This document shows positions 6,672 through 11,890 of a stretch of 55,320 bases of DNA, one piece after another. The position numbers and the translations under genes were made by a program. Each line of letters begins with the position of its first letter. Positions within the stretch are counted from its first letter, which is position 1. The stretch is taken from assembly GCA_028865545.1 (NCBI GenBank), contig JAGWJY010000019.1:1-55320 (forward strand). Reading direction: 5' to 3'. Under the pieces are notes generated by a model, which was not told the DNA's origin, ran no database searches, and saw nothing but the letters and a program-made list of their open reading frames with translations. Origin of the DNA: Alphaproteobacteria bacterium. GTDB lineage: Bacteria > Pseudomonadota > Alphaproteobacteria > Micropepsales > Micropepsaceae.

Positions 6672-7265
6672 ATGCAGCATGCTCTGATTATTGCTCATCC
6701 CAATCCGCGAAGCTTTGTTTCATCGCTAGCGCTGGCCTATGGCGAAGCGGCGGAAGGGCTCGGTCACAAGACAATCATGCGGGACCTGTATGGAATGGCG
6801 TTTGATCCTTGTCTGAAGGCGGACGAGATTCCGACATCGGCAGGCTATGCACCGCGGTCTGATGTTGTTGGCGAACGCGTCATCCTGCGCGACATCGACG
6901 TGTTTGCGTTGTTCTATCCATTCTGGCTGAACGCGCCGCCGGCCATGTTGAAGGGTTATCTCGATCGCGTGTTCGGGATGGGCTTTGCTTATGGCAAAGG
7001 TCGATCCGGAAACGAGCCGCTGTTGCGCGGTCGTAAGTTGATCAGCTTCACGGCGTCAGGTGCGCCGACCGAATGGGTGATGAAGACCGGCGCCTGGGAG
7101 GCCGTCCGTACCTTGTTCGACGAACATGTGGCCGCCGTCTGTGGCATGCAGATCGCAGATCACGTGCACTTCGGCGGCATCGTGCCGGGGATTCGGGGCG
7201 ACGTTGTCGCCCGCCACCAGCAAGCCGTACGCGACACGGTAGCGAGACAATTCGGCTCACATTGA
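6672..7265 (+). CDS. NAD(P)H dehydrogenase (quinone)-type flavoprotein
   Basis: This is a 197-residue protein of the flavodoxin-2/NQO1-like family. The start MQHALIIAHPNPRSF at 6672 was chosen because the family begins exactly here and AGGA lies upstream; an ORF start at 6606 would add an unrelated tail. The HPNPRSF loop binds FMN or FAD phosphate. FYPFWLNAPPAMLKGYLDRV and the following GMGFAYG are the flavin and active-site motifs. The family makes two-electron reductions of quinones or nitro compounds in the cytoplasm. It is followed after 60 bp by the acyl-CoA synthetase-GNAT gene. Possible FNR-type control suggests a low-oxygen role, but that is inference. Confidence 0.88.
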   Translation: MQHALIIAHPNPRSFVSSLALAYGEAAEGLGHKTIMRDLYGMAFDPCLKADEIPTSAGYAPRSDVVGERVILRDIDVFALFYPFWLNAPPAMLKGYLDRVFGMGFAYGKGRSGNEPLLRGRKLISFTASGAPTEWVMKTGAWEAVRTLFDEHVAAVCGMQIADHVHFGGIVPGIRGDVVARHQQAVRDTVARQFGSH

Positions 7266-7275
7266 CATATGGCAA
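7262..7275. promoter_or_regulatory. FixK/FNR-type box before the acyl-CoA synthetase-GNAT gene
   Basis: TTGACATATGGCAA fits the FixK consensus TTG(A/C)-N6-(T/G)CAA exactly and has a palindromic CATATG centre. It overlaps the stop codon of the upstream flavoprotein gene and is centred about 57 bp before the ATG at 7326. It would give the downstream gene its own oxygen-responsive promoter. No binding evidence exists here beyond the match. Confidence 0.45.
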
Positions 7276-7325
7276 TGCGGGAGCCGGCGGTTTAGTACGG
7301 GCTGCTTTTCAGGACGATGTAACTC

Positions 7326-9995
7326 ATGTCCATTCGCAATCTTGATGCCTTCTTCCATCCAAAAAGCATTGCGCTGATCGGCGCCCGTAAGGTTCCTCAT
7401 TCGGTCGGCGCGGTGATGGCGGCAAATCTGCTTTCGGGCGGGTTTAACGGGCCAATCATGCCGGTCAACCCCAGGCATCGTTCCGTCAACGGCGTTCTCA
7501 CCTATCCGGACGTGAAGAGTTTGCCGGTGTCGCCGGACCTCGCAGTGGTTTGTACGCCACCCGACACGGTTCCGGGCTTGATTGCGGAATTGGCGGCGCG
7601 CGGCACCAAGGCCGCGATCGTCGTAACGGCCGGCTTTAGTGAGTCGACGGAGGAAGCGGGTCACAAGCTCGAGCGGGACATGTTGGCCGCGGCGCGCCCG
7701 TCGCTGATGCGTATCGTTGGCCCCAACTGCCTCGGCATCCTTTCGACGCCTTCCGGCGTGAATGCATCGTTTGCGCAAGGCGGGCCGCGCAAGGGCAAGG
7801 TGGCCTTCGTCGCGCAGTCCGGTGCCATGGTGACGACGGTGCTCGATTGGGCAGCCGCCCGCGGCCTCGGCTTCTCGCATTTGGTGTCGCTCGGCGACAT
7901 GGCCGACGTCGATTTTGGCGACATGCTCGACTACTTGGCCAACGATCCCGACACGGATGCAATCCTTCTGTACATCGAGGCGATCACCCATTCGCGCAAA
8001 TTCATGTCTGCGGCGCGTTCCGCCGCCCGCGTCAAGCCGGTGATCGCGATCAAGGCTGGCCGCAGCGAGACGGCGGCGCGCGCTGCAGCTTCGCACACTG
8101 GTGCATTGGCAGGTGTCGATGCGGTCTATGATGCAGCATTTCAGCGCGCGGGCATTCTGCGTGCTTACGATCTCGACGAAATTTTCGACGCGGTGGAGAC
8201 ACTGTCGATGCGTCCGCGCGTGACTGGCGATCGTCTGGCCATCGTCACCAATGGCGGCGGTGTCGGCGTTCTCGCCGTGGACGCGTTGTCGGATTACAAG
8301 GGTACACTTGCCGAATTGACGCCGAAAACCATCGCGAGTTTGAACGCGGTCCTGCCGCCGACATGGTCGCACGGCAATCCGATCGACATCATCGGTGATG
8401 CAGGTGGTGATCGTTACGCCGCTGCGCTCAATGCTATTGCGGATGCGCCGGACATGGATGGCGTCCTTGTGCTGCATTGCCCAGTGGCGGTCGCCTCCGG
8501 CCTCGAAGCAGCTAAGGCGACGGTCGACGCCGTCAAGGCGAGCGAACGCGCCGTGCTGACCAGTTGGCTCGGCTCCGGCGAAGTGGAGGAATGCCGCCGC
8601 ATGTTCCAAGCTGCGCATATTCCGACTTACGAGACGCCGGAGAAGGCCGTTCGCGGTTTCATGCATCTGGCGCGCTATGCCCGCGGACAGAACGTATTGA
8701 TGGAAGTGCCGGCTTCGGCGGCGGAAGACTTCGTGCCGAATGAGGCGCGTGCCCGTGCCATCGTAAACGAGGCGCTGGCGGAAGGTCAGATCTGGCTAGA
8801 CGCGATCCGCGTGGCGCAGCTCTTTGAATGCTATGCCATTCCGAGCGTCCGTTTGGCCAAGGCCGTGACACCCGCAGAAGTGGCTAAGACGGCGCAGGAA
8901 TTCGGCGTGCCGGTGGTGATCAAGATTCTGTCGCCGGACATCACGCATAAATCGGATGTCGGCGGCGTCGATCTGGACATCGACGGCCCTGACGCCGCGA
9001 GAGCGTCCGCCGAAGCTATGCTGGCGCGTGTCGCCAAGGCCGCGCCGAAGGCAAAAATCGATGGCTTCCTGGTGCAGGAGATGGTCCGCCGCCCGCGCGC
9101 TTACGAACTGATCGTCGGTATGGCGGTAGACAGGGTTTTCGGACCGTTCCTGCTGTTCGGTCAAGGTGGCGTGGCGGTTGAAGTGATCGCCGACAAGGCA
9201 CTGGCGCTGGCGCCTCTGAACATGGCGCTTGCCAAAGACATGGTATCGCGCACCCGCATATATCGTCAGCTCAAAGGTTATCGCGACCGTGCGCCGGCGG
9301 CGCTCGACGACGTCAATGCGGTGCTGGTGCGGGTGTCGCAGCTGATCTGCGATTTCCCGGAAATCATCGATCTCGACATCAATCCCCTTCTGGCAGACGC
9401 CAACGGCGTGATCGCCGTTGATGCGCGCATCAAGCTCGTGAAGGTGGAGGCCGGTGCCCGTGACAAACGTCTTGCCATCAAGCCCTATCCTAAAGAGCTT
9501 GAACATCGCGAGACGGTCCCCGGGCTTGGTGAATTCTTCCTGCGCCCGGTGCGCCCGCAGGACGCGGCGGGCTTCACGCGCTTCTTCGCGCGGTTGTCGC
9601 CCGACGATGTTCGCCTGCGCTTCTTCTCGCCTCTGCGCAGTCTGCCGGCCAATCTGCTCGCACGGCTCACACAGATCGATTACGACCGCGATATGGCGTT
9701 CGTTCTGTTTGACGCCGAAGACGAAGTGATGGGCGTCGCGCATTTCGCCGCCGATCCGGACAAACAGCGTGCGGAATATGCGGTATTGGTGCGCAGCGAT
9801 CTCAAGGGTAATGGCATTGGCCGGGCGCTGATGCAGCGCATCATCGCCTACGGCAAGCGCTTTGGCGTCGGCGAGATTTTCGGCGACGTGCTCGAAGAGA
9901 ATGTGATGATGATCTCGTTGTGCCGCGAACTCGGTTGTGCGCTTGCGCCGCTCCCCGGGGCCGCCGGAATAGTGCGCTCCAGCTTGAAGCTGTAA
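7326..9995 (+). CDS. ADP-forming acyl-CoA synthetase fused to a GNAT acetyltransferase domain
   Basis: This is an 889-residue protein. Residues 5-130 are a CoA-binding Rossmann domain (HPKSIALIGARKVPHSVG). Residues 150-460 are succinyl-CoA-ligase-like. Residues 485-700 are an ATP-grasp domain with ITHKSDVGGV and DLDINPLL. Residues 735-885 are a GNAT domain with the acetyl-CoA loop LKGNGIGRALM. The architecture is that of Pat/YfiQ-type protein lysine acetyltransferases. Here, however, the synthetase half keeps the phospho-histidine motif (H257 in ASHTGALAG, like GHAGA of succinyl-CoA synthetase), which enterobacterial Pat has lost. The protein may therefore still interconvert acetyl-CoA + ADP + Pi with acetate + ATP, or acetylate proteins, or do both. 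A FixK-type box lies 57 bp upstream and an FNR gene follows. Confidence 0.9.
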   Translation: MSIRNLDAFFHPKSIALIGARKVPHSVGAVMAANLLSGGFNGPIMPVNPRHRSVNGVLTYPDVKSLPVSPDLAVVCTPPDTVPGLIAELAARGTKAAIVVTAGFSESTEEAGHKLERDMLAAARPSLMRIVGPNCLGILSTPSGVNASFAQGGPRKGKVAFVAQSGAMVTTVLDWAAARGLGFSHLVSLGDMADVDFGDMLDYLANDPDTDAILLYIEAITHSRKFMSAARSAARVKPVIAIKAGRSETAARAAASHTGALAGVDAVYDAAFQRAGILRAYDLDEIFDAVETLSMRPRVTGDRLAIVTNGGGVGVLAVDALSDYKGTLAELTPKTIASLNAVLPPTWSHGNPIDIIGDAGGDRYAAALNAIADAPDMDGVLVLHCPVAVASGLEAAKATVDAVKASERAVLTSWLGSGEVEECRRMFQAAHIPTYETPEKAVRGFMHLARYARGQNVLMEVPASAAEDFVPNEARARAIVNEALAEGQIWLDAIRVAQLFECYAIPSVRLAKAVTPAEVAKTAQEFGVPVVIKILSPDITHKSDVGGVDLDIDGPDAARASAEAMLARVAKAAPKAKIDGFLVQEMVRRPRAYELIVGMAVDRVFGPFLLFGQGGVAVEVIADKALALAPLNMALAKDMVSRTRIYRQLKGYRDRAPAALDDVNAVLVRVSQLICDFPEIIDLDINPLLADANGVIAVDARIKLVKVEAGARDKRLAIKPYPKELEHRETVPGLGEFFLRPVRPQDAAGFTRFFARLSPDDVRLRFFSPLRSLPANLLARLTQIDYDRDMAFVLFDAEDEVMGVAHFAADPDKQRAEYAVLVRSDLKGNGIGRALMQRIIAYGKRFGVGEIFGDVLEENVMMISLCRELGCALAPLPGAAGIVRSSLKL

Positions 9996-10167
9996 CCCTG
10001 GTTTCCGGAAAAAGTATCTGGGAGGTCGCAGGAACACCTGCCCTAGGGGTAATCGCGTACTTTGCAGAACGCCCCACTCCGAGGTTATTCTCTTGTTGGA
10101 ACCATCGCTGTGCCCGTCGAGGCGACGGCCGGCAGTGGATCGGTTTTGCGGAGAAAGTAAGGGCTGC

Positions 10168-10914
10168 ATGCAACGGAAAGTTGCTGAATCCGGCCGAGAC
10201 TTCGATGCTCATTTGCCGCCCGGGGAAGCTGTGTCCGCCCGGCCGGCCGCCTGCGAACAAGGTTGCCGTTTTTTTATGGACGAGGCCTGTGTCCACAAAT
10301 CTGACATGGACGCGGCCGGCGTGACGGTAAAGTTCGTCCGTAACGAGACGATTTATTCAAAGGGCGATGAGGCGCGTTATTCCTATAAGGTAATTGAAGG
10401 TGCCGTGCGTCTGTCGCGCATTTTTGCCGATGGCCGGCGACAGATCGTCAATTTCTATCTGCCCGATGAGACGTTCGGTATCGAGCTCACGGCCGAGTAC
10501 ACGTCCACCGCCGAAGCGGTAGGCGATGTCTTGGCCCTGCGCTGCCCGCGCATCTGCATCGCACAATTGACGGAAGGTAATCCGGATGTAAGTCAGAAGC
10601 GGTTGGCCATGTTAAGCAAAAGCCTGTCTGCGGCCGAGCAGCACGTCGCTATGCTCGGACACCAAAGCGCCAAGGAGCGCGTCGCTTCCTTCTTTCTGGC
10701 GCTGGAAATGCAGCAACACACGCAAGTTGAAGGGATGCTTGATCTTCCACTGAGCCGTCAGGACATCGCCGATTATCTGGGCCTGACCATCGAGACCACC
10801 TGCCGCGCGTTAAGCGACCTCAAGCGCCAGAAAATCATCGACGCGCCGAGCCGGCGACGGATCGTAATCCGCGATCTTCCCGGTCTGCAGGCAATCGCGG
10901 AGGGTGATACCTGA
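10168..10914 (+). CDS. fnr: FNR-type oxygen-sensing transcriptional regulator (Crp/Fnr family)
   Basis: This 248-residue protein starts at the ATG at 10168 (AAGG upstream), which keeps all the cysteines. C29, C33 and C41 (C-x3-C-x7-C) plus C126, placed like Cys122 of E. coli FNR, are the probable [4Fe-4S] ligands. A cAMP-type beta-roll domain (residues 50-135) and dimer helix follow. The C-terminal winged helix-turn-helix contains LSRQDIADYLGLTIETTCRA. The recognition helix has E-T-T-C-R, where FNR/FixK proteins normally have E-x-x-S-R, so cysteine replaces the base-contacting serine. The protein should activate or repress TTGA-N6-TCAA sites when oxygen is low. It sits between the synthetase-GNAT gene and a universal stress gene preceded by a perfect box. 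Confidence 0.92.
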   Translation: MQRKVAESGRDFDAHLPPGEAVSARPAACEQGCRFFMDEACVHKSDMDAAGVTVKFVRNETIYSKGDEARYSYKVIEGAVRLSRIFADGRRQIVNFYLPDETFGIELTAEYTSTAEAVGDVLALRCPRICIAQLTEGNPDVSQKRLAMLSKSLSAAEQHVAMLGHQSAKERVASFFLALEMQQHTQVEGMLDLPLSRQDIADYLGLTIETTCRALSDLKRQKIIDAPSRRRIVIRDLPGLQAIAEGDT

Positions 10915-10944: not shown

Positions 10945-10958
10945 TTGACAAGTCTCAA
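10945..10958. promoter_or_regulatory. Perfect FNR box upstream of the universal stress protein gene
   Basis: TTGACAAGTCTCAA is an exact TTGA-N6-TCAA palindrome in the 106-bp gap between the fnr gene and the universal stress protein gene. It is centred about 69 bp before the ATG at 11021, a distance compatible with FNR activation when the leader is short. The adjacent fnr gene is the obvious candidate regulator. Confidence 0.65.
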
Positions 10959-11020: not shown

Positions 11021-11890
11021 ATGCCGTTCGTCAAGATTCTCGTCCCCGTTGCCGGAGCCGGTCGCGATCGTTTTGCGCTGCAGACCGCTTTCGCGGCCGC
11101 CAGGCCCTTCAATGCCCATGTTGTGGCACTGTTCGTTCATGCAGACCCTCGAGAGTCCGTTCCGTATGGAGAGCTTCCGTTCTCGCCGGGCATCGTTCAG
11201 GATCTGATCGATACGGCCGCCGATCTGGAAAAGGCCGCGTCGAAAGCCGCGCGTAGCACGCTGGCGACCCTCGCCGCGGAATCCGGCATCCGCATTATCA
11301 GCGCGCCGCAACGTAGCGATGCCGTGACGGTTTCCTATCAGGAGATAGCCGGTCATCTCGCCAGAGCACTCGATCGGGAGGCGCGCCTCTGCGATCTGGT
11401 GGTGTTTCCGCCCATCCGCGAGACGGACGACCCGGAGATTCAGGACGGCTTCATCCGTACGCTGACCAAGCTGGAACGCCCAGTGCTGTTGTCGTCCGAA
11501 AAGCCGCCCGAGCAGATCGGCAGGAGGGTGGCGGTGGGCTGGGACGGCGGCATCGCCTGCGCCCACGCGCTGACCGCGGCGCTCCCCTTTCTGGCGCAAG
11601 CGCAGGACATTGAGATTCTCTCCATTCAGGACACCTCGAACCATCACGGCTGCGGTGTCGACGACGTGGCGGCCTATCTGGCGCTGCACGGCCTTACCTG
11701 CACAAGGCGCATCTTCACCCGTAACGGAGACAACGTGGCAGAGCTCTTGCTCGAAAGCGCAGCCAATGGCGGTTTCGACATGCTGGTCGCCGGCGGCTAT
11801 GGCCATAGCAGGCTGATGGAGTCGATCTTCGGCGGCGTCACCGAGCACATTGTCTCGCATCCGAAAATCCCGGTTTTCATGATGCACTGA
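11021..11890 (+). CDS. Universal stress protein, tandem UspA domains
   Basis: This 289-residue protein is about twice the size of one UspA domain. The start at 11021 follows CGGAGGA. The first domain (MPFVKILVPVAGAG) spans residues 1-145. The second opens at RRVAVGWDGG (about residue 168) and ends with the UspA loop GGYGHSRLMESIFGG near the C-terminus. That loop has glycine, not Ser/Thr, after the last glycine of the ATP motif, so nucleotide binding is uncertain. In alphaproteobacteria such two-domain stress proteins are often in FNR/FixK regulons, and a perfect FNR box lies upstream here. Its exact role in low-oxygen survival is unknown. Confidence 0.9.
   Translation: MPFVKILVPVAGAGRDRFALQTAFAAARPFNAHVVALFVHADPRESVPYGELPFSPGIVQDLIDTAADLEKAASKAARSTLATLAAESGIRIISAPQRSDAVTVSYQEIAGHLARALDREARLCDLVVFPPIRETDDPEIQDGFIRTLTKLERPVLLSSEKPPEQIGRRVAVGWDGGIACAHALTAALPFLAQAQDIEILSIQDTSNHHGCGVDDVAAYLALHGLTCTRRIFTRNGDNVAELLLESAANGGFDMLVAGGYGHSRLMESIFGGVTEHIVSHPKIPVFMMH

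Follow-up and report, generated by a model that had tools for sequence, protein, structure and literature searches.

The 889-residue protein encoded at positions 7326..9995 (+ strand) of the window, the whole 55,320-nucleotide stretch of DNA analyzed here, has the architecture of a type I Pat protein acetyltransferase together with an intact set of ADP-forming acyl-CoA synthetase (ACD) residues. We consider it probable that its approximately 705 N-terminal residues, which carry a phospho-H257 loop and H541, form an ADP-forming acyl-CoA synthetase, and that this synthetase is joined to a GNAT protein-lysine acetyltransferase. Both activities are predicted from the catalytic residues and their joint conservation, as well as from the modelled fold. 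The substrate would be a short acid, for example acetate, and the enzyme may save ATP at low oxygen. The reading frame is open from an ATG start, and Pfam and sequence matches resolve it into a CoA_binding_2 domain (residues 13-139; 7362..7742), a flavodoxin-like Succ_CoA_lig domain that contains E218 (residues 156-293; 7791..8204; E = 1.9e-58), a Ligase_CoA_2 domain (residues 305-456; 8238..8693), an ATP-grasp_5 domain (residues 483-704; 8772..9437; E = 2.1e-82) and a GNAT domain (residues 738-871; 9537..9938), the last matched by Acetyltransf_3 over 738-871 and by Acetyltransf_1 over 783-870, all on the + strand.

Among solved structures, sequence similarity is highest to E. coli PatZ (9it0; phmmer E = 1.4e-203), followed by the 4-hydroxybutyryl-CoA synthetase Nmar_0206 (8wzu; phmmer E = 5.2e-120) and then by the alpha chain of ACD1 (4xyl; E = 2.6e-96), and the matches to PatZ and 8wzu are far above chance. 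An AlphaFold model, calculated from the protein and 33 relatives picked by similarity to it, has a mean pLDDT of 87 and a pTM of 0.82. The model aligns with PatZ at a TM-score of 0.90 (normalized by the query) and a VIA-align Z of 35.4 over 860 residues, and, normalized by the target, scores 0.89-0.90 against 8wzu and 0.91-0.93 against the ACD1 alpha chain. The CoA-binding, ligase and ATP-grasp subdomains of the ACD superfamily are thus all present.

Residue 257, in the synthetase half, is a histidine within AASHTGALA (codon 8094..8096, + strand), which the initial annotation had placed at the phosphorylated position of ACDs. Alignments with ACD1, Nmar_0206 and SucD bear this out. The H257 column corresponds to H254 of the ACD1 alpha chain and to H256 of Nmar_0206, and in a profile alignment with SucD it falls on the histidine of MGHAGA, from which plain BLASTP is displaced by one column. 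In the available text of PMC11494057, H256 of Nmar_0206 is the phosphorylated residue on a swinging loop, and H535, its ATP-grasp histidine, is the first to take the phosphate. The counterpart of H535 is H541 (8946..8948, + strand), a predicted relay histidine, so that the loop phospho-histidine, its glutamate partner and the ATP-grasp histidine of ACDs are all found here as H257, E218 and H541. K533, D684 and N686 are likewise present, the latter two within a D684-I-N686 ATP-grasp motif (9375..9383, + strand) that reads D-I-H in PatZ. The tested catalytic positions are invariant in the 34-sequence alignment of the protein with its 33 similarity-selected relatives, and the synthetase half looks catalytically competent from its residues. 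The GNAT half keeps E817 (9774..9776, + strand), the predicted general base and counterpart of PatZ E809. Both the ATP-grasp domain, initially described as intact, and the GNAT domain are present by their Pfam matches and keep H541, D684, N686 and E817. The putative swinging loop spans residues 247-263 (8064..8114, + strand; compare 246-266 in Nmar_0206) and contains 17 of the 22 model residues with pLDDT below 50, the sole run of three or more; such low values fit a mobile loop, though they fall short of proof.

The protein resembles type I (class I-alpha) Pat/PatZ/YfiQ (9it0, 9isq) in domain order, full-length fold and GNAT base, but E. coli PatZ has no histidine at the H257 column, where its loop region is four residues shorter, and has D-I-H in place of D-I-N. 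The loss of this histidine from enterobacterial Pat, on which the initial annotation relied, thus holds for PatZ. ACD1 from Ca. Korarchaeum (4xym) shares the matching glutamate and histidines (E213, H254 and the ATP-grasp histidine for E218, H257 and H541), but is built from separate alpha and beta chains, neither of which matches the GNAT part. Nmar_0206 is a single chain with the same order over residues 10-702 and with H256 and H535 matched, but it has 698 residues, 29% identity and no match to the GNAT part.

If the synthetase half works as these comparisons suggest, it would catalyze acyl-CoA + Pi + ADP <-> acid + CoA + ATP. Acyl-CoA and Pi would react at the CoA-binding half to give phospho-H257, and a swing of the loop would carry the phosphorylated histidine to the ATP-grasp half, where the phosphate would pass to H541 and then to ADP. 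This proposed path is the ACD mechanism, as described in the available text of PMC11494057, read in reverse. The GNAT domain, like that of Pat, would use acetyl-CoA to acetylate lysines of proteins. With acetyl-CoA as the substrate of both halves, a futile cycle could be avoided, in that the synthetase would make ATP from acetyl-CoA and the GNAT domain would silence the ATP-burning AMP-forming Acs. Conservation of residues does not fix the choice of acid or the direction of the reaction. It is possible, though on balance unlikely, that the synthetase half acts on another acid (propionate, branched-chain or aryl) or runs in the acid-activating direction, as an uptake CoA ligase. NCBIfam models for acetate (TIGR02717, acetate--CoA ligase alpha; 493.8 bits against a curated cut-off of 567.15) and for 4-hydroxybutyrate (NF045493; 491.4 bits) score alike below their cut-offs, and a Ptb/Buk-like gene pair beside an IorA-like oxidoreductase suggests that non-acetyl acyl-CoAs may be made; against this, the GNAT domain and the kinship with PatZ point to the handling of acetyl-CoA.

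The conservation of the synthetase residues across the family bears on whether they are in use. We compared 202 distinct full-length fusions; because these share ancestry and 80 loci were selected for resembling our protein, their counts are not independent trials, and two even samples were also counted. A histidine occupies column 257 in 185 of the 202, a slightly inflated figure because MAFFT places a stray histidine there in some loop-shortened proteins, and a stricter loop motif, [ST]H[TS][GR], is present in 171. This expression misses L041, L042 and L044, which are not fusions but retain the core, and wrongly accepts L215 and L225. The H541, D684 and N686 core is complete in 166 of the 171 loop-positive fusions, as opposed to 7 of the 31 loop-negative ones; the five loop-positive exceptions, in which the core is partly missing, include L215 and L225, whose shortened, PatZ-like loops mimic the motif. 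The GNAT glutamate E817 follows a different course, being present in 180 of 185 fusions with H257 and in 17 of 17 without it. Where the loop is lost, then, the ATP-grasp residues appear usually to be lost as well and the GNAT glutamate to stay, as judged from these alignments.

In the first even sample, drawn from 289 alphaproteobacterial genomes, we examined 63 fusions. L010, which has an internal stop and lacks the end of the ATP-grasp domain, is one of them, and G148 contributes two; split or fragmentary matches in G067, G076, G224 and G226, GNAT-less proteins and L083, a truncated protein of G186 whose loop is degenerate, were left out. The phospho-histidine loop is present in 59 of the 63, and the core in 56 of these 59 and in none of the four loop-less proteins. 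The initial annotation was therefore correct that the protein keeps the histidine, but retention is the usual state among the sampled Alphaproteobacteria and not a peculiarity of this protein. In the other Pseudomonadota, sampled across the phylum as 49 fusions from 47 genomes (E <= 1e-150), the loop is found in 21, or in 19 once the false positives L215 and L225 are removed, with the core in 18 of the 21 loop-positive and 5 of the 28 loop-negative fusions. In a set with Desulfobacterota and halomonad members, all 69 distinct aligned rows have the loop. Pairwise dN/dS between our protein and L091 is 0.025 in the CoA half, 0.042 in the ATP-grasp domain and 0.015 in the GNAT domain; the comparisons with L092 and L141 give 0.18-0.25, at a dS close to saturation. 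One 55% homologue, L010, has its internal stop after approximately 670 residues and GNAT sequence past the stop.

These patterns make it very improbable that we are dealing with a plain Pat enzyme whose synthetase is inactive, like that of E. coli PatZ, and whose histidine is a relic. Its PatZ architecture and 40% identity to PatZ would accord with such an enzyme, and the available text of a review calls the type I and type II domains inactive (PMC8556138). Yet H257 and its partners are invariant in the 34 sequences and are usually lost together, and a relic should have decayed in the way that the synthetase residues of L078, L197 and L231 have. Support for the bifunctional enzyme put forward in the initial annotation accordingly comes from the catalytic residues kept in both halves, from the joint loss of loop and core and from four relatives that are synthetase-only; the part of that proposal concerning the activities themselves stays a prediction.

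Those four relatives (L074-L077) lack the GNAT domain, have 706-731 residues, keep the ACD residues and come from small alphaproteobacterial genomes (1.1-2.0 Mb). In the phylogeny they lie inside the fusion clade, with a support of 0.995 at a 40-tip node and of 0.25 to 0.9 at nearer nodes. A search of their loci for a GNAT remnant found none, and the 72 genomes with an acetate-kinase match do not include any of the four that encode these proteins. That the ACD residues are kept where the GNAT domain is missing suggests that the synthetase activity is worth keeping alone. In a tree calculated with the tested columns removed, the loop state changes approximately nine times after correction of miscalls; the uncorrected count, which included the loop-less fragment L084 and the errors of the loop expression, was 13 changes versus 38 with shuffled labels. 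Parsimony leaves the direction of each change unfixed, and we read the histidine-bearing fusion as ancestral and its loss as repeated because outgroup ACDs carry the phospho-histidine. From these sequences, loop loss looks to have been repeated, including on the enterobacterial branch that holds PatZ, and enterobacterial Pat looks derived. As loop and core are usually lost together and the GNAT domain is kept, while the GNAT-less relatives keep the synthetase, enterobacterial Pat would be the derived form and the synthetase of our protein likely a working one.

An alternative role for H257 would be that of a phospho-switch, set by the level of ATP or acyl-CoA and gating the GNAT domain, while the synthetase itself would carry little net flux. 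According to the available text of PMC8556138, acetyl-CoA binds to the N-terminal domain of SePat/PatZ, and this domain is believed to regulate the GNAT domain; regulation is thus the role already known for this half. A switch of this kind nevertheless seems improbable here, given that the ACD residues are kept in relatives with no GNAT domain to gate and that the entire active site, beyond the loop, is kept. Returning to a synthetase with net flux, we tentatively suggest, at somewhat short of even odds, that the Pat family began as a bifunctional enzyme. Such an enzyme would have made ATP from acetyl-CoA and acetylated Acs so that the ATP was not burned again, phospho-H257 may have timed the acetylation, and the enterobacterial acetyltransferases would be its degenerate descendants.

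The type I architecture of Pat is textbook knowledge, and acetyltransferase classes are set out in the available text of PMC6456759. Proteins of this kind are also already labelled as bifunctional: homologues encoded on rhizobial plasmids carry the NCBI PGAP label 'bifunctional acetate--CoA ligase family protein/GNAT family N-acetyltransferase', and the two labelled homologues whose loops we checked (L247 and L248) both have the phospho-histidine loop. The literature searched yielded no activity data behind this label and no paper on the PatZ structures, and the titles and abstracts retrieved report no active synthetase half in a Pat. Nor did the search return a report of the intact form as the alphaproteobacterial norm, or an assay of it, a weak negative given that most subscription papers lay outside its scope. 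The available text of PMC8556138 regards the synthetase half of type I and II bacterial lysine acetyltransferases as inactive because it lacks the histidine. This description fits the derived branches, the enterobacterial one included; most of the sampled alphaproteobacterial members keep the loop. If the synthetase half is active, energy conservation from acetyl-CoA and protein acetylation would be tied together in one chain, and many bacteria would possess an overlooked ATP-forming route.

The genome itself encodes an AMP-forming Acs with a TRSGKIMRR site and a histone-deacetylase-like protein, and a search for SIR2 gave no match at 95.7% completeness. Reversal of acetylation would therefore need the histone-deacetylase-like protein. 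Matches to SIR2 occur in 50 of 59 fusion genomes versus 110 of 230 others (G269 included), raw counts with genome size uncontrolled; the idea that the fusion needs a sirtuin was rejected, as the genome under study has no SIR2 match. Acetate kinase is found in 23 of the 59 fusion genomes versus 49 of the 230 others (p = 0.007). Each of the 59 has a full-length copy with the loop, in G218 interrupted by an internal stop; some of the 230 have copies that are fragmentary or lack the loop, and the genome under study scores as positive through a weak Buk-like match. Fusion genomes are thus richer, not poorer, in acetate kinase; we rejected the proposal that the fusion replaces this enzyme, and it is not a simple substitute for it. 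Elsewhere in the same genome, positions 240-4418 of L245 (G000 contig C11:15500-21000) carry, on one strand, a Ptb-like gene and a divergent acetate/butyrate kinase-like gene next to one for an IorA-like 2-oxoacid oxidoreductase, likely a second substrate-level phosphorylation module.

In the window the fusion gene is the second of a four-gene cassette on the + strand. It is preceded by a Flavodoxin_2 family gene (6672..7265; start inferred, frame open from 6606) and followed by a Crp/Fnr regulator gene (10168..10914; start inferred, frame open from 10093) and a universal stress protein gene, usp (11021..11890; start placed from a GGAGG before the ATG, frame open from 10958). The same order is found in L089, L090, L091, L092, L093 (Rhizomicrobium electricum, 63%), L034, L037 and L141. 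The host is probably an alphaproteobacterium resembling Rhizomicrobium. On one Mesorhizobium and one Sinorhizobium meliloti plasmid, the genes close to the homologue include those for a universal stress protein and for a member of the pyridoxamine oxidase family. Clustering of the neighbours in 52 non-redundant loci, out of 70 with enough flank, revealed no universal neighbour, and the largest clusters, named by eye, were AMP-ligase (11), Usp (9), ABC ATPase (8) and Crp/Fnr (8). The regulator is FixK/FnrL-like, with FixK its best NCBIfam match, at scores below the cut-offs, and has an N-terminal C-x3-C-x7-C; an Fe-S cluster is doubtful because the third cysteine is missing in the close relative L091.

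Possible FNR control of the fusion gene, also raised in the initial annotation, fared poorly. An FNR-like match upstream of the gene (TTGACATATGGCAA, one mismatch; 7262..7275, + strand) overlaps, in its first half, the preceding gene's stop codon and occurs in two of nine cassette loci, recurring in L090 alone among the eight cassette relatives with a start region. It is absent from L091, whose protein is 96% identical, and L089 has a different match at -7. In contrast, an FNR/FixK-like box before usp, next to the Crp/Fnr gene (TTGACAAGTCTCAA, one mismatch; 10945..10958, + strand), is present as TTGACAnnTCTCAA in 10 of 10 cassette loci, the one studied here included. We therefore regard FNR control of the fusion gene as unsupported. 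The window holds 11 boxes with at most one mismatch versus 3.9 expected, a number that no shuffle reached. Across the family, FNR/FixK-like boxes are enriched upstream of the gene, occurring in 32 of 184 upstream windows versus 222 of 5,870 other windows, and in 19 of 112 versus 128 of 3,350 after removal of sequences at least 70% identical, the background windows being a weak control because they are mostly coding.

Two antisense reading frames on the minus strand, at 7257-8666 (469 aa) and 8796-10169 (457 aa), overlap the fusion gene and are probably a by-product of codon bias. Upstream of the fusion gene, at 7271-7310, a TGGCAA with a TTTAGTA- or TTTAACA-like sequence after it is largely conserved over the nine cassette loci and is possibly the real promoter.
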